A stretch of DNA of 36,842 nucleotides, taken from a virus. Below the pieces are notes generated by a model that ran no database searches, had not been told where the DNA came from, and saw nothing but the letters and a program-made list of their open reading frames with translations. Positions 1 through 36,842 of this stretch are shown in pieces. The translations under genes were made by a program, and so were the position numbers. The stretch covers positions 1 through 36,842 of IMG/VR virus record IMGVR_UViG_3300044765_000010. One strand, 5' to 3'. Within the stretch, counting starts at the first letter, position 1. Every line of letters begins with the position of its first letter.

Positions 1-127
1 TAAGATAGAGCGCGCCGCCGGCGCGAGCAGCCCAGCCGAGCGCGGGCATGTGCCGTGCCCATTCTGCGGCGGTGAGGTGGACCCGAGAGGCTGGCTCAGC
101 AATGCCGGCGTTCGCGGCCCGGAATGC
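1..127. repeat. Terminal direct repeat, left copy (contig overlap)
   Basis: Bases 1-127 are identical to 36716-36842. A reading frame entering from the right end continues in frame after the repeat, so the two ends join. The length of 127 equals a commonly used assembler k-mer, which suggests an assembly overlap on a circular or permuted molecule and not a biological terminal repeat. Confidence 0.95.
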
Positions 128-652
128 GTTAGTTGCGGCGCGACAGCTCCGTCGATGTTGGTGTGGAACCGGCGCGCCACTTTGAACCAGCCGAGCGGGG
201 AGCGGCGGGCGGCGTTTGAGGCCGCTTTCGAGGCGCGTGAAGGGTATAAACCGTGCTGGGATGGGATGGGCGAATATAGTTTTCGTATGGAGCAGGTTGC
301 CTGGGAAATGTGGCAAGCCGCCATCGCCAGCCAGGGCCGGGAGCCGGTGGCATTTTCATTGCAGTGGCCAGATGATGTGATCGGCAACAAGATAAATCCC
401 AATGCGGTCTTTCCCACAAAACAGCTTGCGGCGGAATATGCAAAAGACTGCCTCTCGCCAAAACCGATTATTGCGCCTCTCTACACCTGCCCGCAGCCGA
501 CCGCACAGGGCGTGCCGGATGGGTGGCAGTTGGTGCCGAAGGAGCCGACAGAGGAAATGCGGCAAGCAGGGTTGCGGCATACTGGGGCAGTTCACGCAAC
601 GTGGCGGGATATGTTAGCCGCCGCGCCGGATGGGGAGGGGAAGAATGGATAA
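2..652 (+). CDS. Lar-like zinc-ribbon phage protein (3' part; gene starts at 36288)
   Basis: This is the downstream part of a gene that begins at 36288. Joined across the overlap (36288-36842 plus 128-652) it encodes about 359 residues. The segment near bases 53-175 has the pattern of Lar-family restriction-alleviation proteins: PCPFCGG, then C-x2-CGA, then a WNRR end, giving two CxxC-type pairs that would bind one zinc. Lar proteins are small and relieve host type I restriction. Here the domain is embedded in a much larger protein whose C-terminal part (a DGWQLVPKEPTEEM motif) resembles a tail common in phage hypothetical proteins. The zinc ribbon is visible; the anti-restriction role is inferred. 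GC content is clearly higher here than in most of the genome. Confidence 0.75.
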   Translation, partial: KIERAAGASSPAERGHVPCPFCGGEVDPRGWLSNAGVRGPECVSCGATAPSMLVWNRRATLNQPSGERRAAFEAAFEAREGYKPCWDGMGEYSFRMEQVAWEMWQAAIASQGREPVAFSLQWPDDVIGNKINPNAVFPTKQLAAEYAKDCLSPKPIIAPLYTCPQPTAQGVPDGWQLVPKEPTEEMRQAGLRHTGAVHATWRDMLAAAPDGEGKNG

Positions 653-815
653 GCCGGATTGGGAGGACGCGCCAGGTTGGGCGACGCACCTCGTTTATCA
701 CGATGCGTGGTATTGGGCCATCATCTTGACCAACGGCAACATAACCGCATCGAAGAAAATCGAATGCGACGCAGAGCCACCGGTCATCCCATATGTTGAG
801 GTACGCCATGACTGA
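645..815 (+). CDS. Small phage protein, unknown function
   Basis: A 56-residue acidic protein rich in Trp and Tyr (WEDAPGWATHLVYHDAWYW near the N terminus). Small phage proteins with a WxDAPxWA start are common next to early genes, but no function is known to me. I chose the ATG at 645 because a GGGGAGGGG stretch lies just upstream; an in-frame GTG upstream at 630 is less likely. The gene overlaps the end of the previous gene by 8 bp and the start of the next by 8 bp, so it belongs to the rightward operon. Confidence 0.65.
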   Translation: MDKPDWEDAPGWATHLVYHDAWYWAIILTNGNITASKKIECDAEPPVIPYVEVRHD

Positions 816-1323
816 GCCTATGCGTTTTGATTTCAAGTGCGCGCCGGCCAGGATTGTGCGACATGAGGACGGGGCTTATGTGCGCTACGCCGACTGGCAG
901 CGCACCGAGGCGGCGCGGGTGGCGGCGGAACGAGCGTATGAAAGGCATATAGATGTTGCCATCGAAGTTTTGAAGGAGCGCGACCAACTCCGCGCCCAGA
1001 TGGATCGGCTACAAGCATCGTTCGACCGCGTCAACGCCGACTGGCTGCGGCAGGATAAAGAGATTGGCGAGCTACAGCGGCAGCTAGCCGAGTCGCAGAA
1101 GGATGCGGAGCGGTATCGGTGGCTGCGCAGAGACGATATTAAAGTGCTGCCAGGGCAGGACGACATATACGTTTCTAGGCAGCAATCGATATTTTTTCGG
1201 CACATTGATGTACTTGTTGATAGCGAGCTGGACGCAGCCATTGATGCCGAGATGGCCGCTAGTCCTATGCCCCAATGGCCGCACCCTGATGGCTTCGGCG
1301 GCGGGTTGATGGGGGAGAAATGA
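808..1323 (+). CDS. Coiled-coil phage protein
   Basis: Encodes 171 residues. The middle (about residues 50-105) is a strong heptad-like coiled coil rich in Arg, Glu, Gln and Leu, followed by a DAERYRWLR motif that recurs in phage hypothetical proteins of unknown role. The C terminus is Gly/Pro rich. The ATG at 808 overlaps the stop of the upstream gene, and its own stop overlaps the ATG of the J-domain gene. No enzymatic motif is visible. Base composition resembles the GC-rich Lar-like gene more than the genes downstream of 1320, so a mosaic boundary may lie near its end. Confidence 0.7.
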   Translation: MTEPMRFDFKCAPARIVRHEDGAYVRYADWQRTEAARVAAERAYERHIDVAIEVLKERDQLRAQMDRLQASFDRVNADWLRQDKEIGELQRQLAESQKDAERYRWLRRDDIKVLPGQDDIYVSRQQSIFFRHIDVLVDSELDAAIDAEMAASPMPQWPHPDGFGGGLMGEK

Positions 1324-2196: not shown

Positions 2197-2427
2197 ATGC
2201 GGAAAGTCTACCGACAACTTATCATCTTCGTTGAGCTTGAGCTTTGCGTATTTGCTGCCGCTATCATAGGGCTGCAGGTAAAGATTTTCCTTAAGCTCAA
2301 CGGTGATGAATTTTGGTATCACGAATATACAGGATGGTTGTTCATCCTTGGACTATTCATTGTTCCTGTGTATAGCTTGATCCGTGTTCTGAAGGCGCTA
2401 GCCGGTTACTACGACAAGGAGGCATGA
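2197..2427 (+). CDS. Two-span inner-membrane protein
   Basis: Encodes 76 residues with two hydrophobic stretches (about 9-30, LIIFVELELCVFAAAIIGLQV, and about 48-68, WLFILGLFIVPVYSLIRVL) separated by a short polar loop containing GDEFWYHEYTG. The N terminus is basic. I use the ATG at 2197 preceded by GGAAA; a TTG immediately after the previous stop would add three residues. It overlaps the next gene by ATGA. Small phage membrane proteins in early operons often affect superinfection or host membrane processes, but nothing specific can be said here. Confidence 0.6.
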   Translation: MRKVYRQLIIFVELELCVFAAAIIGLQVKIFLKLNGDEFWYHEYTGWLFILGLFIVPVYSLIRVLKALAGYYDKEA

Positions 2428-2639
2428 TGCGTAACGAAAAATTGCTTAACAAGGCTCTGGCGGATGACCTAGAAACACAAGACCGTCGCGCCGCATTGGA
2501 AGCACTGCGTACTTCCTTCTGGCTTGGATCGAAACGCAATCGTGCGAAGACTCTTCTTGAAGGCGCTGAGTTTTCAATGCACCCTACCGTTCTTGTAAGC
2601 TCGCAAATCGGCCTACCTGGAATTTCAGTATTGGTATGA
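2424..2639 (+). CDS. Small hypothetical protein
   Basis: Encodes 71 residues, basic in the first two thirds (RNEKLLNKALADDLETQDRRAALEALR, likely helical) with a hydrophobic C terminus ending GLPGISVLV. A very good ribosome-binding site (AAGGAGG) precedes a double ATG, and the start overlaps the previous stop. I recognise no family. It is the last short gene before the hairpin-controlled protease gene. Confidence 0.6.
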   Translation: MMRNEKLLNKALADDLETQDRRAALEALRTSFWLGSKRNRAKTLLEGAEFSMHPTVLVSSQIGLPGISVLV

Positions 2640-2647
2640 GTACATGA

Positions 2648-2695
2648 TTGACATGATATGCTCCGGAATGGGTAAAACTCATTTCGGAGTATTGT
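2648..2695 (+). promoter_or_regulatory. Hairpin burying the ribosome-binding site of the protease gene
   Basis: CTCCGGAATG at 2661-2670 pairs completely (one G-U pair) with CATTTCGGAG at 2680-2689, leaving a 9-nt loop. The 3' arm contains the Shine-Dalgarno GGAG (2686-2689), 7 nt before the ATG at 2697. In RNA this 10-bp stem would hide the ribosome-binding site. A TTGACA at 2648-2653 could be a -35 box, but no good -10 follows at 16-18 bp. If transcription did start here, the dyad would act as an operator instead. Confidence 0.6.
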
Positions 2696-2696
2696 C

Positions 2697-3890
2697 ATGC
2701 CTATCGCTTCATATGCTTTGATCGATGATATTAACAATTCATCGAATGAGAATCATGCACCAGCAGTAGAAGCCACATTTTCTGCATATGCGTCAATGCT
2801 GGGATATTCGGCGAACATTGATGCATCGCTTCAGATGCCGACTGATGCTAGCACGTTCGGCCCTACTATGCTGAACGCTGCGCAGCATACCAACGCGCTC
2901 GTAATCAACAATAGCTGGGACGCGCCGTACACACTTGATCACGCCTACGGCCTACCAACTGAGAACAATGCCGCCTATCAAGCGAGCCTGCAGATTTTCC
3001 AGTCTGGAAAAACAATGGTTTTTGCTGCTGGAAATTACGGGGCACCGTTCCTGGTTGTCAATGAGCCTGCTGCAAGCCCGTTCAATATTGTCGTCAGTGC
3101 AGGTGATACAAACGCGCCGGGAAACCAGTGGGAATTGACCAGCTATACGAGCGAACATCCAGGAATTACCAACTACGTGACGTATGGCGGTTCGCTGGAT
3201 GGTTCAGGAATGGTGGGAACATCGTTCGCCGCGCCTCGCGTATCGGCGCTGGTTTCGTGCCTGCAGGCCAAGTTCGGCAACACGCTGACCCAATCCGATA
3301 TTCGTACGGCGCTCGATATGGGCGCGAACCATCTGAATTTGCCGATTGCTAACCAGAACACACCATATGGTAATCCCGGCAACTTCGTCTACAACGTGCT
3401 AGACGACGCTTCGATGCAGGGTATCGTTAATGGCGGCTACACTCCGGGTCAGAACACCATTGGCATGCAGGTAGACGCCCTATACAAGCTATTGCTGGAT
3501 CGTAATCCGGACCAAGGCGGCTTGAACGCTTGGACTACCTACGCACAACAGCACGGGCTTGCTAGCGTCGCAACAGCGTTCATGCAAAGCAGCGAGTATC
3601 AGCAGGATTTGGCCACGCCACACACCTTCGAGCAAACGCCATTGTTGGACAAGGTGCAGGCGATGTATCACCTATTCTTCAATCGGGAATCAGATGATGG
3701 CGGCCTAGCGGCTTGGACTAATTGGGTTATTCAGAGCTATCCGGCTAGTAGCCAGCAATATGGAAATACAGGGCAGTTCTACAGCGACTGGAACCATATT
3801 GCGGCAACATTCACTAGCGGAGTGATTGGAGCCGATGCAATTGCTCTAACCGGATCAGTATATGGACAAATCGCTGGCCATATGACTTAA
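2697..3890 (+). CDS. Subtilisin-like (S8) serine protease with DUF4214-like repeats
   Basis: Encodes 397 residues. Residues 1-230 carry the subtilase signature in order: ALIDD (Asp10, probable catalytic Asp), ENH (His20), NNSWD (71-75), FAAGN (oxyanion Asn113) and GTSFAAP with Ser176. Asp and His are only ten residues apart, so the domain is unusually compact. Residues about 255-305 and 316-350 are two DUF4214-like repeats (VDALYKLLLDRNPDQGGLNAWT and VQAMYHLFFNRESDDGGLAAWT), modules known from large exported bacterial proteins. There is no signal peptide and no obvious propeptide. It closes the rightward unit and converges on the late leftward unit. Domain calls are from motifs; a virion-associated or host-directed protease is inference. 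An alternative is an inactive S8-like fold. Confidence 0.85.
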   Translation: MPIASYALIDDINNSSNENHAPAVEATFSAYASMLGYSANIDASLQMPTDASTFGPTMLNAAQHTNALVINNSWDAPYTLDHAYGLPTENNAAYQASLQIFQSGKTMVFAAGNYGAPFLVVNEPAASPFNIVVSAGDTNAPGNQWELTSYTSEHPGITNYVTYGGSLDGSGMVGTSFAAPRVSALVSCLQAKFGNTLTQSDIRTALDMGANHLNLPIANQNTPYGNPGNFVYNVLDDASMQGIVNGGYTPGQNTIGMQVDALYKLLLDRNPDQGGLNAWTTYAQQHGLASVATAFMQSSEYQQDLATPHTFEQTPLLDKVQAMYHLFFNRESDDGGLAAWTNWVIQSYPASSQQYGNTGQFYSDWNHIAATFTSGVIGADAIALTGSVYGQIAGHMT

Positions 3891-3939
3891 AAGTCACTTG
3901 CCTTTTTTGGTCTTGCCAAGGATTTTGTTTGCCTTGGCA
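3883..3939. terminator. Possible bidirectional terminator between convergent units
   Basis: Two small inverted repeats lie where rightward and leftward transcription meet: TGACTT-AA-AAGTCA (3883-3896) followed by CTTGCCTTTTTT, and TGCCAAGG/CCTTGGCA (3914-3921 and 3932-3939, 10-nt loop) followed by a T-rich stretch. The second lies inside the 3' end of the leftward gene. Both are only moderate hairpins. Confidence 0.35.
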
Positions 3940-4112
3940 TCAATCTTTTCCTTTGAGCTTTCGGAAAGCTTGCCTTTCTTCTCCATCTGCGATGCTCTGG
4001 CCTTTGCATTTGCCGCATGGCTTCGATCAGGCATCGGATATTTTTCACTGCCAGGCAATCCGAAGTCTTTCTTAGGAAGGTCTTTGCGAGATTTGGTTGT
4101 AAGTTTTGCCAT
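3894..4112 (-). CDS. Small basic phage protein
   Basis: Encodes 72 residues, rich in Lys and Ala, starting MAKLTTKSRKDLPKKDFGLPG and continuing YPMPDRSHAANAKARASQ. This pattern (TTKxRKxLPxxDFxxP followed by YPxxDxxHAxNAKARASQ) is widespread in phages, often close to structural genes, and resembles DUF6582-type proteins. The function is unknown. GAGGGTAATC lies before the ATG. It is the last gene of the late leftward operon, just after the holin gene. Confidence 0.75.
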   Translation of the reverse strand: MAKLTTKSRKDLPKKDFGLPGSEKYPMPDRSHAANAKARASQMEKKGKLSESSKEKIDAKANKILGKTKKGK

Positions 4113-4114
4113 GA

Positions 4115-4645
4115 TTACCCTCGATTGTCAGATGGAACACGCGGATCAGCCTGCATCTTTCCACGAAAGAATGACGCGACACCTAGTATCCCGCCAACGG
4201 TTAGCGTCAAGTCGGGCGAGAGCGCTACAGGTTGAACATGAAATAGCGGGAGAATCCACATTGCAGCGACATACAGTCCGAACATAAATCCGATGAATGG
4301 CCTCCAGCTATAAGATGGCCAATGGTCCTTGGCGGCCTCAATCTGCATAGTCTGGTTGACAGACTGAACTTGAGCGATATCTGCCTGCAGTTCAGCCATG
4401 GTTTCATCGTGCGCGAGCTGAGCAAGTTGCAGGTGTTGAGACAATACGGCCTCTTGGAACTTCTCCGCCATCGCTGGGTCATTCTGTATGGCGGCAACAG
4501 CCTGGTCGGGATTGCTGGTATTGGTGACAGCCTGAGCAATCCCGACTACTTTTTGTGCTACGTCTTGCGCTTTGCTTCCACCTAGCCAGCCTGCGATTGT
4601 AGGCGCGAATTGGGCGAGCGCCATGCATATGGTAATCGGGTCCAT
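4115..4645 (-). CDS. Holin, 3TM (gene-transfer-agent release) type
   Basis: Encodes 176 residues. The N-terminal APTIAGWLGG segment, a long helical stretch (about 40-105) and a WRPFIGFMFGLYVAAMWILPLF membrane segment with a second hydrophobic span (LTVGGILGVASFF) match the arrangement of the 3TM holin family (Holin_3TMs). Holins permeabilise the inner membrane to trigger lysis. Its ATG overlaps the stop of the lysozyme gene (TAATG), which supports a lysis cassette. The order endolysin then holin is reversed relative to lambda. A second holin-like membrane gene lies at 25199-25516. Confidence 0.75.
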   Translation of the reverse strand: MDPITICMALAQFAPTIAGWLGGSKAQDVAQKVVGIAQAVTNTSNPDQAVAAIQNDPAMAEKFQEAVLSQHLQLAQLAHDETMAELQADIAQVQSVNQTMQIEAAKDHWPSYSWRPFIGFMFGLYVAAMWILPLFHVQPVALSPDLTLTVGGILGVASFFRGKMQADPRVPSDNRG

Positions 4646-5127
4646 TATTCAACCGCCTTCAATAGATTACGAGCATCCCGCCGACTCCAGCCACGGCCAA
4701 ATGTTGACCATGTCCGGCAAGCTGTCTGATAAAGAATTCGATAAGCGGTGAACGCCATAACGAAGCGTAGCGGATCGGCAGCGCGAAGGGCCGACATTGT
4801 AGCCGGCCCTAGCTTACCATCTGCTTTAACGCCGACAGCCTGCTGTGCCCATAGCACAACATGGCCGCCGTTGTAATTAGCGTCCAGCATGGCAAAGCTC
4901 ATCCTGTCATCAAACTCATCTAGCCTGAGTGAATCCCAATAAAGCTTTTTAGCCACAGAACGAGCCGAATCAATCGGGTAGTCCCGCATGTCGCCTTGGT
5001 ATCCATTGGCACGGGCGACGCGCTGAGTAATCCCCCAGCGTGTTTCGCCTCCTGGATCGGCTGGATTATCGACATAGCCGCCCTCGTTTCCGACAAGAGC
5101 GGCCCATGCCTTGTTGAAATCTGCCAC
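4645..5127 (-). CDS. Endolysin, GH108 lysozyme with peptidoglycan-binding domain
   Basis: Encodes 160 residues. NEGGYVDNPADPGGETRWGIT at 14-34 is the active-site signature of the glycosyl hydrolase 108 (N-acetylmuramidase) family, with Glu15 as the expected catalytic residue. The C-terminal half (about 95-158, AVGVKADGKLGPATMSAL) matches the PG_binding_3 module. There is no signal peptide or SAR-like N terminus, so export should need a holin, encoded next door. The start is GTG at 5127 (GTG GCA GAT TTC), with only a weak ribosome-binding site, so translation is probably coupled to the preceding gene three bases away. Confidence 0.92.
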   Translation of the reverse strand: MADFNKAWAALVGNEGGYVDNPADPGGETRWGITQRVARANGYQGDMRDYPIDSARSVAKKLYWDSLRLDEFDDRMSFAMLDANYNGGHVVLWAQQAVGVKADGKLGPATMSALRAADPLRFVMAFTAYRILYQTACRTWSTFGRGWSRRDARNLLKAVE

Positions 5128-25777: not shown

Positions 25778-25853
25778 TGGAGCGGACAAGGAGATTCGAA
25801 CTCCTGACATCTAACTTGGAAGGATAGCGCTCTACCGACTGAGCTATGCCCGC
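25778..25853 (-). tRNA. tRNA-Gly (UCC anticodon), CCA encoded
   Basis: On the minus strand, the 76-nt sequence starts GCGGGCATAGCTCAG and ends TGTCCGCTCCA. The acceptor stem GCGGGCA pairs with TGTCCGC (one G-U), the D arm is GCTC-AGTCGGTA-GAGC, the anticodon loop is CTTCCAA with TCC, and the T arm is AGGAG-TTCGAAT-CTCCT. The discriminator base is U and CCA is encoded. It would read GGA and GGG codons. All arms pair, so the gene looks functional. An open frame across it (25645-25926) is spurious. Confidence 0.95.
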
Positions 25854-27565: not shown

Positions 27566-28339
27566 TCAAAGACCGCAACCAAAAGGTGATCCGCAGTCGA
27601 TTACAAACAGGTCATCAATGCCAGGTTTGAACTGCCCAGGAGAATACTTGGCCCACTGGATCACTTGTTGAATACCTTGCGCACCGCCATGCTTTGCGGC
27701 TCGGAACATCGGTTGGCCAACCTCCGATTCAAGAGCGGCGAGCCGGCCAATTTGATGACCAGATACCCTGCGCAAGTCATGCCTGTTGGCATTTACACAA
27801 GGACTGCATTCGTCGCTCCTGTGCGGTAGCTTGACAATTCCAGCGCGAGACAGAAGAGCGTCGCGGTCTTCCTCGGAATGCAGGTAGAGCGGATGCCAAA
27901 CTCGCCTATCGCCGTGGTATTCACTGCGCTCAATCCACTCAGGCGTGTCTTTACGGTCCTCGCTCTCCTCGCGGCGTTTACCGATCAACACAACTGCCTG
28001 GCGATCAGGGTCAGCTTCATCAATCCATTGAAGAAAAGGAAGCCCTTTTAGCCACATGGTGCAGAATTGCTGACCGTGCATAGGGAAACCGTGTTTCATT
28101 CGAACCAAGGCTTCCATTCCCATGCTCTGAAGCTGGATAGTCTCATACCCATAGCGCTGAGCAAGAGCTTCCCCAAGTGCCACGCGCTCTCCCCAGCTAG
28201 GCGCAGACCAACCGGTATCGCAATAAGCGACCGTGACATCTTCCAGGCCGTATTCGTGCGCGTACTGAATCAACGCGGCACTGTCATTCCCATAGCTAGC
28301 TGAGATGACAAACTGAAGTCTATTTGTGCTTTGCATCAT
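27566..28339 (-). CDS. PAPS-reductase-like / adenine nucleotide alpha-hydrolase family protein
   Basis: Encodes 257 residues. SASYGNDSAAL at 13-23 is a PP-loop (pattern SxGxDS); FCTMWLKGLPF near 92-102, IGKRREESEDRKDTPEW and the cysteines Cys93, Cys178 and Cys181 (CSPC) resemble the PAPS reductase/DndC-type family. These proteins activate or reduce substrates through an adenylate, in sulfate reduction, nucleic acid thiolation or unknown phage roles. No partner genes for DNA phosphorothioation are present. The gene is enclosed by a 27-bp inverted repeat. Two adjacent ATG codons overlap the preceding stop. Confidence 0.75.
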   Translation of the reverse strand: MMQSTNRLQFVISASYGNDSAALIQYAHEYGLEDVTVAYCDTGWSAPSWGERVALGEALAQRYGYETIQLQSMGMEALVRMKHGFPMHGQQFCTMWLKGLPFLQWIDEADPDRQAVVLIGKRREESEDRKDTPEWIERSEYHGDRRVWHPLYLHSEEDRDALLSRAGIVKLPHRSDECSPCVNANRHDLRRVSGHQIGRLAALESEVGQPMFRAAKHGGAQGIQQVIQWAKYSPGQFKPGIDDLFVIDCGSPFGCGL

Positions 28340-29961: not shown

Positions 29962-30447
29962 TCAGATATTGGGCGCGTCATCGCCGCAAAACACCTCAAT
30001 GAATTTCTGTTTTAGCGCGTCCCTGGCGGCCCAGGCGGCGTCCCAGGCGGCACTGGCGGCGTCCCTGGCGCCCCTGGCGGCGGCCAGTTCTTCGTCTGTT
30101 GCTTCGCCATTGGCGAAGCGCTCTGCCACATTCAGTGCATTGATACTACGCTTGTCGGTCATAAGGTGCTGAACTTGACGGGCGCACCATATGCCATACA
30201 GTCGCGCTGCGCGCTGGAGTTCTTTCGTCTGCTCACATGCACGGAGCGCCCACAGCGCATCATCTGTCCCATTGCTCTCAAGGATGAACGCCAGCGAAAT
30301 CGGTTCTTTGTGCGAGAAGCGGATATACGTTTCGCGCTCTGCATCTTTATCGCTGAATTGCTCTCCTTGAAGTGCTCGAACGACCTTGTTGTAGCCTTCG
30401 ATGCATGCTCCAGCTTCGGGGAGCTGCTTAAGAGTCGTTGTGATCAT
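29962..30447 (-). CDS. Hypothetical protein with Ala-rich repeats
   Basis: Encodes 161 residues from the ATG at 30447, which has an AAGGAAAT site; a longer start at 30498 would overlap the promoter and palindrome. The first part (YNKVVRALQGEQFSDKDAERETYIRF, NGTDDALWALRACEQ) belongs to a common but uncharacterised phage protein type. The C-terminal 45 residues are Ala-rich (AASAAWDAAWAARDALKQ), encoded by short GC-rich near-repeats at about 30017-30086 which may expand or shrink. First gene behind the 30.5-kb promoter. Confidence 0.65.
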   Translation of the reverse strand: MITTTLKQLPEAGACIEGYNKVVRALQGEQFSDKDAERETYIRFSHKEPISLAFILESNGTDDALWALRACEQTKELQRAARLYGIWCARQVQHLMTDKRSINALNVAERFANGEATDEELAAARGARDAASAAWDAAWAARDALKQKFIEVFCGDDAPNI

Positions 30448-30483
30448 TTTTATTTCCTTCATCAGTGTGCTGTCGATGAGTTC

Positions 30484-30512
30484 ATCATACGTGCTCATTG
30501 AGCACTATGCAA
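30484..30512 (-). promoter_or_regulatory. Leftward promoter with 15-bp palindromic operator
   Basis: TTGCAT (30512-30507), 17 bp, then TATGAT (30489-30484). The spacer contains the palindrome GTGCTCATTGAGCAC (30491-30505), with 7-bp arms. A repressor bound there would block RNA polymerase. Transcription would start near 30477, before the 161-residue gene. The spacer 30448-30521 holds nothing else. Confidence 0.65.
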
Positions 30513-33053: not shown

Positions 33054-33253
33054 TCGTATCCTCCTTCTTCGATGATATCCGCCAGCTCGCTTGCTGCCCG
33101 GATAGTTAGATAGTCTCCCTCAAGATCGCGCAACCACTCAACGATGGCCGCACGCTCATCAGCCGTGCCCTTGTCGTAGCCTTGCTGCCACTCCTTATCT
33201 AGCACTTCGCGCAAATCATCGCGCATATCGTCTTCGTCGGCGTATTGTTTCAT
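33050..33253 (-). CDS. Small acidic protein
   Basis: Encodes 67 residues, acidic and helical (DEDDMRDDLREVLDKEWQQGYDKGTADERAAIVEWLRDLEGDYLTIRAASELADIIEEGGYE). Its start overlaps by ATGA the stop of the alternative-frame protein at 33250-34074. GGAGGATGAAGC before its ATG is a strong ribosome-binding site. No known family. Confidence 0.65.
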   Translation of the reverse strand: MKQYADEDDMRDDLREVLDKEWQQGYDKGTADERAAIVEWLRDLEGDYLTIRAASELADIIEEGGYE

Positions 33254-34074
33254 GCTTCATCCTCCAGAAAGTAATTTGAATGCTGTAGCTGCCACTCCTG
33301 GAACCTGTCCATTTCCAAGGGCTTTAATTCGGTCCACCCGAGCGGCCACCCCATCAGCCACTCGACCCACGTTGGGTTCAGTTGTCCACCATCTGAAGCC
33401 ATAACGGCATGGTCCAAGCGGTCGTTCTGCCGGCTCTTGCCGTTCTTGCGCGTAAGAGCTCCAATGGATGATCCTTTGCTCGCGCTCGCGCTCGCGGTTG
33501 GAGTTGGATATTTTCGTACTGCTGTTGCCAAACCGTCTCCGCTGTATTTGCTTGCTCCCTTCCTGTTGTAATTCCCGCAAACTGTTATTGTTGGCCACAA
33601 GCCAGATACGGTCACGTTCATGGGGCGCTCCGCAGTCGGATGCTGAAATACATGCCCATTGCGCGTCATACCCCAGCGCGGCAAGGTCACCAATGACCAT
33701 GGCAAGTCCTCGTCCCACAAGCAGAGGTGAGTTCTCCACGAAGACGAAGCGGGGTCGAACTTCACCGATAATTCGTGCCATTTCTCTCCAGAGACCGGAG
33801 CGTTCGCCATCAATACCGGCGCCGTTACCGGCTGCACTGATGTCCTGGCATGGGAACCCTCCAGAAACCACATCAATAAGCCCTCTCCAAGGTCTTCCGT
33901 CAAAGGTCCGAACGTCATCCCAAATCGGGAAGGGCGGGAGAATGCCGTCATTCTGTCTGGCGGCAAGAACGCTTGCGGCGTATGGCTCCCATTCAACAGC
34001 GCAGACTGTGCGCCAGCCGAGCAGGTGGCCGCCGAGTATTCCTCCACCAGCACCCGCGAAAAGAGCCAGCTCAT
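33250..34074 (-). CDS. Alternative-frame protein fully overlapping the methyltransferase
   Basis: Encodes 274 residues in a frame shifted by one relative to the Dcm gene, over its entire length. The N terminus MSWLFSRVLVEEY, the middle SRFGMTFGPL and SGLWPTITVCGNYN, and the C terminus LNPTWVEWLMGWPLGWTELKPLEMDRF match a phage protein type I recognise from other phages, usually unnamed. AGGAG lies 5 nt before its ATG, a better site than for the Dcm start four bases upstream. Its ATG overlaps the stop of the upstream 44-codon gene (ATGA), and its stop overlaps the next ATG, exactly as neighbouring genes do. The function is unknown. Confidence 0.6.
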   Translation of the reverse strand: MSWLFSRVLVEEYSAATCSAGAQSALLNGSHTPQAFLPPDRMTAFSRPSRFGMTFGPLTEDLGEGLLMWFLEGSHARTSVQPVTAPVLMANAPVSGEKWHELSVKFDPASSSWRTHLCLWDEDLPWSLVTLPRWGMTRNGHVFQHPTAERPMNVTVSGLWPTITVCGNYNRKGASKYSGDGLATAVRKYPTPTASASASKGSSIGALTRKNGKSRQNDRLDHAVMASDGGQLNPTWVEWLMGWPLGWTELKPLEMDRFQEWQLQHSNYFLEDEA

Positions 34075-34078
34075 TCAT
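33257..34078 (-). CDS. dcm: DNA cytosine-5 methyltransferase
   Basis: Encodes 273 residues. Motif I is LFAGAGGG (6-13), motif IV GGFPCQDIS with catalytic Cys77, motif VI ENS (115-117), motif VIII GAPHERDRIW (150-159), and the C-terminal TEPNVGRVADGVAARVDRIKALGNGQVP carries motifs IX-X. The target-recognition region (about 165-235) is short. The enzyme would methylate cytosine in phage DNA, perhaps to avoid host restriction. I start at the ATG at 34078, with GGAAG 8 nt upstream; a longer frame to 34126 lacks support. No partner restriction gene is seen. The entire gene is overprinted by the frame at 33250-34074. Confidence 0.88.
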   Translation of the reverse strand: MNELALFAGAGGGILGGHLLGWRTVCAVEWEPYAASVLAARQNDGILPPFPIWDDVRTFDGRPWRGLIDVVSGGFPCQDISAAGNGAGIDGERSGLWREMARIIGEVRPRFVFVENSPLLVGRGLAMVIGDLAALGYDAQWACISASDCGAPHERDRIWLVANNNSLRELQQEGSKQIQRRRFGNSSTKISNSNREREREQRIIHWSSYAQERQEPAERPLGPCRYGFRWWTTEPNVGRVADGVAARVDRIKALGNGQVPGVAATAFKLLSGG

Positions 34079-34205
34079 ACTCCTGTTCTTCCTTCTCCTC
34101 AGCCTGCTCCAGCAGCCGAAGGACATACGTGCGCCAGATTAGCGCGGCTTGTAGTGCCAGGCTCTGGTCTGTGTAGACCTCAGAGCTTTCACATGTGGTT
34201 TCCAT
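34071..34205 (-). CDS. 44-residue protein
   Basis: METTCESSEVYTDQSLALQA then ALIWRTYVLRLLEQAEEKEE and QEYE. Helical with an acidic end. AGGAAAGGAATAACA precedes the start, and its TGA overlaps the ATG at 34074. It overlaps the Dcm start by 8 bp. The function is unknown. Confidence 0.6.
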   Translation of the reverse strand: METTCESSEVYTDQSLALQAALIWRTYVLRLLEQAEEKEEQEYE

Positions 34206-34509: not shown

Positions 34510-34635
34510 GATTACATCGACTCAGTAAGATGACCGCACAACCACGGAAGGAACTGAGATGGTTAATTTTTCTAACTGATCGAAGAATAGGCATTAAATC
34601 AATGTCCCGACACAGTCTCGGGCGGAAAGGAAATC

Positions 34636-35421
34636 ATGAGCACCGCACTTGTATCGCTTACTAATAAGCTAGCCAGCCGTTTCGATATGGGAGACGGCAC
34701 GGAGCTGATAGCCACGCTCAAGGCGACGGCATTCAAAGGCCAAGTCTCCGATGCGCAGATGACCGCGCTTCTGATTGTGGCGAACCAGTACGGACTAAAC
34801 CCTTGGACCAAGGAAATCTATGCCTTCCCAGACAAGAACAATGGGATCGTGCCAGTGGTCGGCGTGGACGGCTGGAGTCGCATCATCAACGAGCATCCGC
34901 AATTGGATGGGATAGAGTTCGAATACGGGCCGGCCACCGAGGACGGCAAGCATCACGAATGGATCGAATGCCTGATCTACCGTAAAGACCGAAGTCGCCC
35001 CATTCGTGCCCGCGAATTCTGGAGTGAGGTCTATCGCCCAAATACTGGACCGTGGCAGTCGCACGGCAACCGTATGCATCGCCACAAGTCGCTGATTCAG
35101 TGTTCACGCTTGGCCTTTGGATTCGCTGGAATCTATGACCAAGATGAGGCAGAGCGTATTGTGCAGAGTGTGAATGATGCGCAGAAATCAGCGGCTGCTT
35201 ATGCGGAGCGTGCCAGGGTAGAGGGTTCGAATAGCGAAGAGGCACAAAGCCTGATTGCCGATCTTGAAGTTCTTGCAAAAGATGGTGATTGGCCTGGGCT
35301 TGGGAAGACATGGCAATCCATGAGCGATGCACAGAAAACCATGGTCGGGTCGGTCGAGTTCGCACGGCTGAAAGAGCTTTGCAAAGCCAACATGCAAAAT
35401 CTGGAGTCTAGCGATGATTGA
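34636..35421 (+). CDS. bet: Bet/RecT-type single-strand annealing protein
   Basis: Encodes 261 residues, the same length as lambda Bet. Motifs include QMTALLIVANQYGLNPWTKEIYAFP, GIVPVVGVDGWSRIINEHP, DRSRPIRAREFWSEVYR, and HRHKSLIQCSRLAFGFAGIYDQDEAERI. The protein anneals complementary single strands during phage recombination and acts with the exonuclease encoded next. A GGAAAGGAAATC site precedes the ATG. It is the first gene of the rightward unit. Confidence 0.92.
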   Translation: MSTALVSLTNKLASRFDMGDGTELIATLKATAFKGQVSDAQMTALLIVANQYGLNPWTKEIYAFPDKNNGIVPVVGVDGWSRIINEHPQLDGIEFEYGPATEDGKHHEWIECLIYRKDRSRPIRAREFWSEVYRPNTGPWQSHGNRMHRHKSLIQCSRLAFGFAGIYDQDEAERIVQSVNDAQKSAAAYAERARVEGSNSEEAQSLIADLEVLAKDGDWPGLGKTWQSMSDAQKTMVGSVEFARLKELCKANMQNLESSDD

Positions 35422-36040
35422 GCAGCGTACAGATGCATGGCATCAGCAGCGCGCAGGTAAGATCACAGCTAGTCGATTTTCTGACGCTATTGCAATGAAC
35501 AAGCGGCAGCCGGACAAGCCAACCGAAGCACGTAATACCTACCTGCGCGAGCTAGTGGCGGAAATTCTCTCCGGCGAGCCTAAGCCGGAAATAAATAGCT
35601 CATCGTTGCAGTGGGGGAAGGATGTAGAGCAGTACGCCCGCGAGGCCTACGAGTTCAAGACCGGAAACTTGGTTATGGAGTCGGAGTTTGTCATACATAC
35701 CATGCATGATTTCATCGGATGCAGTCCTGACGGTTTGATTGGCCTTTATGGCGGCATGGAGATGAAGTGCCCGAAAGACCCTCAAGTTCACATCAAGACA
35801 TTGATCGATGGCATGCCAGACGATCACATCGATCAAGTACAAGGATGCATGTTCGTCACTGGACGCCAGTGGTGGGACTTCATTAGCTATGATCCGCGCC
35901 AAGCTGAACCGTATCGCCTATACACCCAGCGCATCGAACGCGATGAAGCCTATATCAACCGCGTGCTAGAACCCGGCTTGCTGTCGTTCTGGAGCGATGT
36001 ACAGGCTGTACTTGCAAAACTCAGGGAGCGCGTAGCATGA
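35414..36040 (+). CDS. YqaJ-family (lambda Exo-like) exonuclease
   Basis: Encodes 208 residues (lambda Exo has 226). RTDAWHQQRAGKITASRF is the YqaJ start; catalytic acidic residues lie in GCSPDGLIG and in GGMEMKCPK (ExK), with DHIDQVQGCMFVTGRQWWDFISYDP as the usual QxxxxM/L region. It resects DNA 5' to 3' to give Bet its substrate. It overlaps the Bet gene by 8 bp. Together they form a Red-like pair; no Gam-like gene is seen. Confidence 0.92.
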   Translation: MIEQRTDAWHQQRAGKITASRFSDAIAMNKRQPDKPTEARNTYLRELVAEILSGEPKPEINSSSLQWGKDVEQYAREAYEFKTGNLVMESEFVIHTMHDFIGCSPDGLIGLYGGMEMKCPKDPQVHIKTLIDGMPDDHIDQVQGCMFVTGRQWWDFISYDPRQAEPYRLYTQRIERDEAYINRVLEPGLLSFWSDVQAVLAKLRERVA

Positions 36041-36291
36041 CAGCAAAAACCTGCATCCGCTGCGGAGTGGAGTACAACGGACTGAACTGGGCACGTGCTG
36101 AGCGCATAAACAAGAAAGATGGAACGCACACCGGAAATATATGCTACGACTGCCACAAGAAACAGGTGCATGAGTGGCAGGAGGCTAACAGAGACAGAAT
36201 GCGTGCGAGTGCCAGAAGATACAACGATCGCCATAAAGATGAGATGAAGGCTAAACGCATGGCTAAGAGAGCGAAGGAGAAGGCAGCATGA
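36037..36291 (+). CDS. Small zinc-finger-like basic protein
   Basis: Encodes 84 residues. CIRCGVEYNGL and ICYDCHKK give two CxxC pairs (a zinc ribbon), followed by a long basic helix (RDRMRASARRYNDRHKDEMKAKRMAKRAKEK). This pattern occurs in small phage HNH-associated or DNA-binding proteins, but no nuclease residues are visible. Overlaps the exonuclease gene and the next gene by ATGA. Confidence 0.7.
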   Translation: MTAKTCIRCGVEYNGLNWARAERINKKDGTHTGNICYDCHKKQVHEWQEANRDRMRASARRYNDRHKDEMKAKRMAKRAKEKAA

Positions 36292-36842
36292 ACAACGAAC
36301 GAGATTGCCAGCATGGGCGCCATGAAAGATCTTGTTATATCTGTGATCTGGAAGAGGAAATCGTTGAGTTGACGGAGCGCCACGCCCGTGAGCTGCGCGC
36401 GGTGGCGGAGGCAGTGCGAAACGCCACGATTGTTGGATGGAGGAGCGAAGGTGAATGGCTGGAAGAGAATGAACTTGACGCCATCATCGCCAGCGTGACG
36501 GGGAAGGCAGCCCAGCCTGCAGTGGACCACACGCCGCCGTTCGGCAACTGCCAGTTCAAGCTGTGCGACCTGCCGGGCCAGTGCCGCAGCGAGGGAGCCT
36601 GTCATCATCCGAAGCTGTTGGCGCCAAGCGATGGCCAAATCTACGCCGCTGTGTCGCAGCGCGCCAATCCGGAAGCGCAGGAACAGGCCATGCAAGCGCT
36701 CGTGGGCGCATCGCATAAGATAGAGCGCGCCGCCGGCGCGAGCAGCCCAGCCGAGCGCGGGCATGTGCCGTGCCCATTCTGCGGCGGTGAGGTGGACCCG
36801 AGAGGCTGGCTCAGCAATGCCGGCGTTCGCGGCCCGGAATGC
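36288..36842 (+). CDS. Lar-like zinc protein (5' part; continues at base 128)
   Basis: The first 185 codons of the junction-spanning gene. The start NNERDCQHGRHERSCYICD holds Cys/His pairs that could form a first zinc site. A helical segment (LEEEIVELTERHARELRAVAEAVRNATIVGWRSEGEWLEENELDAIIA) follows, then FGNCQFKLCDLPGQC, a second Cys-rich part. The Lar-like CPFCGG ribbon begins at the right end. GC content is higher than in the Bet and exonuclease genes upstream. Confidence 0.75.
   Translation, partial: MNNERDCQHGRHERSCYICDLEEEIVELTERHARELRAVAEAVRNATIVGWRSEGEWLEENELDAIIASVTGKAAQPAVDHTPPFGNCQFKLCDLPGQCRSEGACHHPKLLAPSDGQIYAAVSQRANPEAQEQAMQALVGASHKIERAAGASSPAERGHVPCPFCGGEVDPRGWLSNAGVRGPEC
36716..36842. 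repeat. Terminal direct repeat, right copy (contig overlap)
   Basis: Exact copy of bases 1-127. Removing one copy gives a circular unit of 36,715 bp and an intact 359-residue gene across the joint. Confidence 0.95.

Follow-up and report, generated by a model that had tools for sequence, protein, structure and literature searches.

A compact phage family of subtilisin-fold proteins with DUF4214 repeats is encoded by accessory genes with a probable hairpin gate over the start site

RESULTS

The locus and the phage that carries it

The window analyzed here corresponds to a 36,842-base virus record in IMG/VR. Because it carries portal, major head, DNA-ejection, terminase, endolysin, and RecT-like genes, we assign it to a P22-like podovirus. 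The only cellular relative found of its portal, 56% identical, is in Achromobacter aloeverae, and on the strength of that relative the host is probably a member of the Burkholderiales. The two ends of the window (1-1104 and 34531-36842) map to one continuous stretch of a related record, L002 (IMGVR 3300044706_000015), in which window positions 36729 and 894 lie about 0.8 kb apart. The window may therefore be a nearly complete, circularly permuted genome. Elsewhere it contains a tRNA-Gly gene (25778-25853, -), a PAPS reductase-like gene (27566-28339, -), and, on the minus strand, two long ORFs that both match DNA methyltransferase families (33257-34126, phrog_363, and 33250-34074, phrog_1008). 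They are read in different frames, share about 820 nt, and are a possible overlapping gene pair at 33250-34126.

The gene under study combines a peptidase S8 domain with two DUF4214 repeats and lies near the lysis genes (Table 1). A gene for a J-domain protein (1320-1970, +; Pfam DnaJ, 1.3e-23) is located upstream in the same gene run.

Table 1. Features of the S8-DUF4214 locus, in window positions
Feature	Position	Strand	Details and basis
71-aa ORF, left neighbor, end of the early-strand gene run	2424..2639	+	Kept beside the empty site of L003
Leader hairpin predicted to pair with Shine-Dalgarno and AUG	2652..2699	+	-29.7 kcal/mol, z -6.1
Extended -10-like motif TGATATGCT in the hairpin 5' arm, putative promoter	2654..2662	+	Sequence only; shared with L003
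Shine-Dalgarno GGAG in the hairpin 3' arm	2686..2689	+	Sequence
S8-DUF4214 protease gene	2697..3890	+	397 aa, ATG start; Pfam, dN/dS, alignment
Compact S8 (subtilisin-fold) domain, residues 1-252	2697..3452	+	AlphaFold model, Z about 20; profile match
Asp10 codon, followed by Asp11	2724-2726	+	
His20 codon	2754-2756	+	
Asn113 codon	3033-3035	+	
Ser176 codon	3222-3224	+	
First DUF4214 repeat, residues 259-303	3471..3605	+	Pfam PF13946
Second DUF4214-like repeat, about residues 316-350 (approximate end)	3642..3746	+	Second Pfam stretch
72-aa gene (phrog_16160), right neighbor, convergent	3894..4112	-	Beside the empty site of L003
Holin-like gene (GTA_holin_3TM)	4115..4645	-	Pfam, 2.8e-7
Endolysin gene	4645..5127	-	phrog_315, 5.5e-37

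The protein has a compact subtilisin fold

Pfam matched residues 59-216 to Peptidase_S8 (PF00082; 8.3e-11, 42.2 bits against a curated cut-off of 21.8) and two further stretches to DUF4214 (PF13946; 1.7e-10, 41.3 bits against a curated cut-off of 23.2). The second DUF4214-like repeat corresponds to helices 316-328 and 334-347 of the AlphaFold model described below and is kept in close relatives.

We modeled the protein with AlphaFold using nine aligned phage sequences, which yielded a pLDDT of 74.5 and a pTM of 0.83; a first model from three sequences (pLDDT 45) was set aside. The modeled elements follow the order seen in subtilisin, with strand 2-10 leading to Asp10, helix 20-34 starting from His20, and helix 175-192 beginning beside Ser176. 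Over residues 1-252, the model aligned with subtilisins at a Z-score of about 20 (204-214 residues aligned, rmsd 2.8-3.5), and Foldseek matched it to subtilisins at 2.6e-6. The profile of the nine phage sequences matched subtilisin BPN' at 2.8e-13, with His20, Asn113, and Ser176 aligned to subtilisin His64, Asn155, and Ser221. Comparing profiles against those of canonical bacterial S8 domains also confirmed the core and left the Asp-His segment unaligned. Asp10 terminates the first strand within an A-L-I-D motif, and motif and position together point to it as the candidate catalytic Asp. The predicted topology and the alignments agree with a catalytic triad.

No signal peptide was seen by eye in the 397-residue protein, and because the frame opens just seven codons before the ATG (a 404-aa frame), no propeptide can precede the protease. 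The signal peptide and inhibitory propeptide of pre-pro-subtilisin are thus both absent, and the S8 fold begins at residue 1. The Asp-His spacing is 10 residues. An earlier note, made from the sequence of the window, had proposed an S8 protease with these four catalytic-site residues, a short Asp-His spacing, no signal peptide or propeptide, and two DUF4214 repeats. The four residues are at the places it gave, and the S8 fold, the short spacing, the missing signal peptide and propeptide, and the two repeats are supported.

Relatives with conserved catalytic residues were sought and found. The His, Asn, and Ser are invariant in all nine aligned sequences, and the Asp is kept in the five closest. 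Three distant relatives (L042, L066, and L036) have Glu at the Asp position (IMETPF) and a His further downstream, perhaps a variant triad. Comparison with the 96% identical copy in L002 gave a dN of 0.017 and a dS of 0.29, and the resulting ratio of 0.056 indicates purifying selection. This ratio and the invariant residues show that the ORF is not a chance reading frame. The same evidence bears on whether the fold is catalytic at all. A subtilisin fold that has lost its activity and is retained as a binding module could account for the very short Asp-His segment and for the Glu in relatives of the L042 and L066 type, but it would leave unexplained the three residues kept throughout, the Asp of the closest members, and such strong selection, and we consider it highly improbable.

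The family recurs in uncultured phages

Relatives of the protease are present on about eight other IMG/VR contigs. In addition to the copy in L002, a 41% identical copy is encoded by 3300045049_000041 (L003). Searching IMG/VR with a DNA pattern that encodes GTSFAAPR brought out further relatives, namely L032/L062 (35% identity), L038/L061 (38% identity), L035/L063, L037/L064, and a group consisting of L042/L065, L066, and L036, the last of which is cut off by the contig end; L033 is a shorter, more doubtful relative. All pattern-drawn relatives that were scanned passed the Pfam S8 cut-off. DUF4214 scored above its Pfam cut-off in L003, L032, L038, and L035, matched weakly (E about 0.04) in L042 and L066, and in L037 became visible only by alignment and with a model made from close members. 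The Asp-His spacing is 10 residues in close members and short by eye in the other relatives. L037 also has a lipobox-like N-terminus (LLLAACGG). Separately, L031 (IMGVR_UViG_3300038393_000580) contains a 1,827-aa open frame with DUF4214-like repeats towards its C-terminal end.

None of the 50,697 deposited phage records gave a match, and no full-length relative of the protease was detected in genome contigs, deposited phages, or plasmids. Searches at the order, class, and phylum levels (about 1,170 genomes) returned S8-only or DUF4214-only matches, and no cellular ORF with both domains was present among the loci fetched, which were short and represented a subset of the matches. PubMed Central holds papers that name DUF4214, none of them on phages, and a phage subtilase of this type was not found there. 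The earlier note's remark that no common phage gene has this pairing therefore holds for deposited phage genomes and fails for uncultured phages, in which the pairing recurs. We conclude that the gene is real and conserved and belongs to a compact phage S8-DUF4214 family.

The gene behaves as an accessory cassette

The location of the gene differs among related phages. In the window and L002, it is the last gene of the early-strand run and faces the convergent lysis genes. The endolysin of L003 is 91% identical to that of the window. About 40 bp separate the 71-aa and 72-aa flanking genes in L003, and the protease gene is absent from this gap; the copy in this phage is instead found between a tail-fibre assembly gene and a 65-aa gene that precedes the endolysin, antisense to both. 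In L061, the gene shares a strand with the tailspike, assembly, endolysin, and holin-like genes and directly follows them, and in L062 it adjoins the terminase genes. L005 carries an integrase beyond the holin-like gene, at the site corresponding to the protease slot. Presence and absence, relocation, and the integrase in the slot together mark the gene as accessory (moron-type) in this P22-like podovirus. It clusters around the lysis end in this phage group, with neither strand nor site fixed.

These arrangements weigh on another option raised in the earlier note, a protease in or on the virion. In L003 and L061, the nearby genes for tail fibres and lysis would suit such a role. However, close relatives have the slot empty or the gene at another site, so the cassette is dispensable, and in the window it stands apart from the head and tail genes; this option has lost support and now appears quite improbable. 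A head-maturation protease was rejected, as the gene lies apart from the head genes and is dispensable.

A predicted hairpin covers the start site

In the window and L002, a predicted 22-pair stem encloses the Shine-Dalgarno sequence and the AUG of the protease gene (-29.0 kcal/mol, z -6.6 in L002). L003 has a hairpin at its different site, before the 41% identical protein, that again covers both elements (z -3.3). The window and L003 share the outer stem, whose 5' side has CATGATATGCTC and whose 3' side has GGAG and TCATG, and they differ in the apical stem. This outer-stem 12-mer occurs once in the window; among the loci compared, it occurs only on protease-carrying records, directly upstream of the gene where checked. 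A strict leader pattern retrieved L002 only from the viral contigs, a search that misses the L003 leader and may miss others. The absolute energy of the hairpin is unexceptional, ranking 49th among the 12,260 overlapping segments of the window, and its weight comes from the z-score, the position over the start site, and the recurrence. The strongest predicted hairpins of the window, at 30013-30086 (-41.9 kcal/mol per 66 nt), fall where a 178-aa ORF (29962-30498, -) encodes Ala/Trp/Asp-rich repeats.

By folding, opening the Shine-Dalgarno and AUG would cost 19 kcal/mol in the long RNA, compared with 5-8 kcal/mol in RNAs starting at 2664-2676. These predictions support a start site that is sequestered in the long RNA and freed when the RNA is shortened. 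The motif in the 5' arm, TGATATGCT, looks like an extended -10 element; it is weak and was not called by a generic promoter scan. The protease leaders of L061 and L062 lack the hairpin (z +0.9), and L062 has a consensus-like TGGTATAAT upstream of the gene. The phages with the hairpin are thus those in which read-through from the early strand could reach the gene, and the late operon of L061 lacks it; in this small sample, the distribution is consistent with gating of read-through. In the three phages that have it, the hairpin appears to hold the protease gene shut until the right moment and is a probable gate over the start site. The hairpin and the cassette behavior are both new relative to the earlier note.

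Promoter-like motifs upstream of an isolated cassette, which is antisense to late genes in L003, are also what lysogenic conversion would predict: a prophage would express the gene from its own promoter and so change the lysogen. The integrase in the corresponding slot of L005 fits as well. On the other hand, no integrase was found in the records of the window, L002, L003, L061, and L062, which are possibly incomplete, and in L061 the gene is part of the late strand run. We therefore view lysogenic conversion as unlikely.

DISCUSSION

We tentatively favor an explanation in which the gene encodes a late or self-promoted accessory protease, of putative activity, that is freed at lysis and acts on envelope or extracellular proteins. 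When the early-strand genes upstream are read through into a long RNA, the hairpin would keep the protease untranslated, and from a short RNA begun within the 5' arm it would be translated, following the logic of T4 gene e. Since the long RNA would be blocked and the short one open, we infer late synthesis of the protease or synthesis from a promoter of its own. The protein would gather in the cytoplasm until lysis frees it, and the DUF4214 repeats may then hold it on envelope or extracellular material, where proteins would be cleaved. DUF4214 typically accompanies exported proteins, and this usual company, the lipobox-like leader of L037, and the lysis neighborhood support a role outside the cell. 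Against this explanation, the window protein has no signal peptide; strand and site vary among relatives, the L062 copy lying beside the terminase genes with TGGTATAAT and no hairpin; and the motif taken as a putative promoter within the 5' arm is weak.

The missing export signal and the position at the end of an early-strand run would also suit an intracellular effector that cleaves, within the cytoplasm, a protein of the host or of a rival phage, for takeover, counter-defense, or superinfection exclusion, with the hairpin limiting toxicity. Subtilases occur in anti-phage defense, and the Ser motif of the protein weakly matches IetS, the subtilase of the IetAS defense system. However, the IetS match (E 0.0012) spans 32 residues and covers the Ser motif only, and no match to the partner ATPase IetA was recognized in the two neighboring small ORFs or the J-domain ORF. 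The exported company of DUF4214 and the L037 N-terminus also argue against an intracellular role, which we find rather doubtful, if still to be taken seriously.

Most subtilisins require a propeptide for folding and intracellular silence. As an extension of the favored explanation, and a doubtful one, the family could consist of "lysis-release" proteases in which translational silence until late makes the propeptide dispensable. Lysis would discharge the enzyme, DUF4214 would retain it on cell-surface or biofilm material, and protein barriers would be cleared for the progeny. If true, the family would represent a minimal subtilisin found in nature, one that begins with the first strand, dispenses with most of the Asp-His segment, and seems to be restrained at the mRNA. 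It would also offer a small, tractable model for DUF4214, a widespread domain for which we know of no assigned function. Little is known of the genes that uncultured phages carry as cargo, and the S8-DUF4214 protease extends their list by one putative enzyme.

Several known systems resemble the protease in part. The phage and giant-virus entries in BFVD (e.g., A0A6J5NRV7) are likewise viral proteins with an S8 domain, but their TM-scores by query length are near 0.4, as expected if the S8 part alone aligns, and no entry in the BFVD list is named as having both S8 and DUF4214. Among exported bacterial DUF4214 proteins, L020 has a trypsin-like protease domain followed by two DUF4214 repeats, so the combination of a protease with DUF4214 is not confined to phages. 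L020 differs in being of the trypsin class rather than S8, and cellular DUF4214 proteins are mostly larger. With the subtilisins (S8/PF00082; BPN' and the mycosin MycP1), the phage protein shares the fold of its first 252 residues, the His, Asn, and Ser motifs, and GTS-x-A-x-P. Unlike them, it has neither signal peptide nor propeptide, a spacing of 10 residues compared with about 32 in BPN' (Asp32-His64), and a C-terminal DUF4214 pair.

The closest parallel to the leader comes from phage T4. Long early transcripts of T4 gene e are blocked and short late ones are translated (PMC3014915), and the leaders of I-TevI, SegB, and MobE have a similar hairpin layout (PMC2988022). In this group, which also includes soc, the Shine-Dalgarno and AUG are sequestered in long transcripts, and a promoter in the 5' arm gives rise to open short ones (PMC3014915, PMC2988022). 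The leader described here resembles those of T4 in its predicted hairpin over the Shine-Dalgarno and AUG and in the -10-like motif of the 5' arm. It differs in having only a sequence motif as promoter, in belonging to a P22-like phage, and in preceding a gene for a putative protease.
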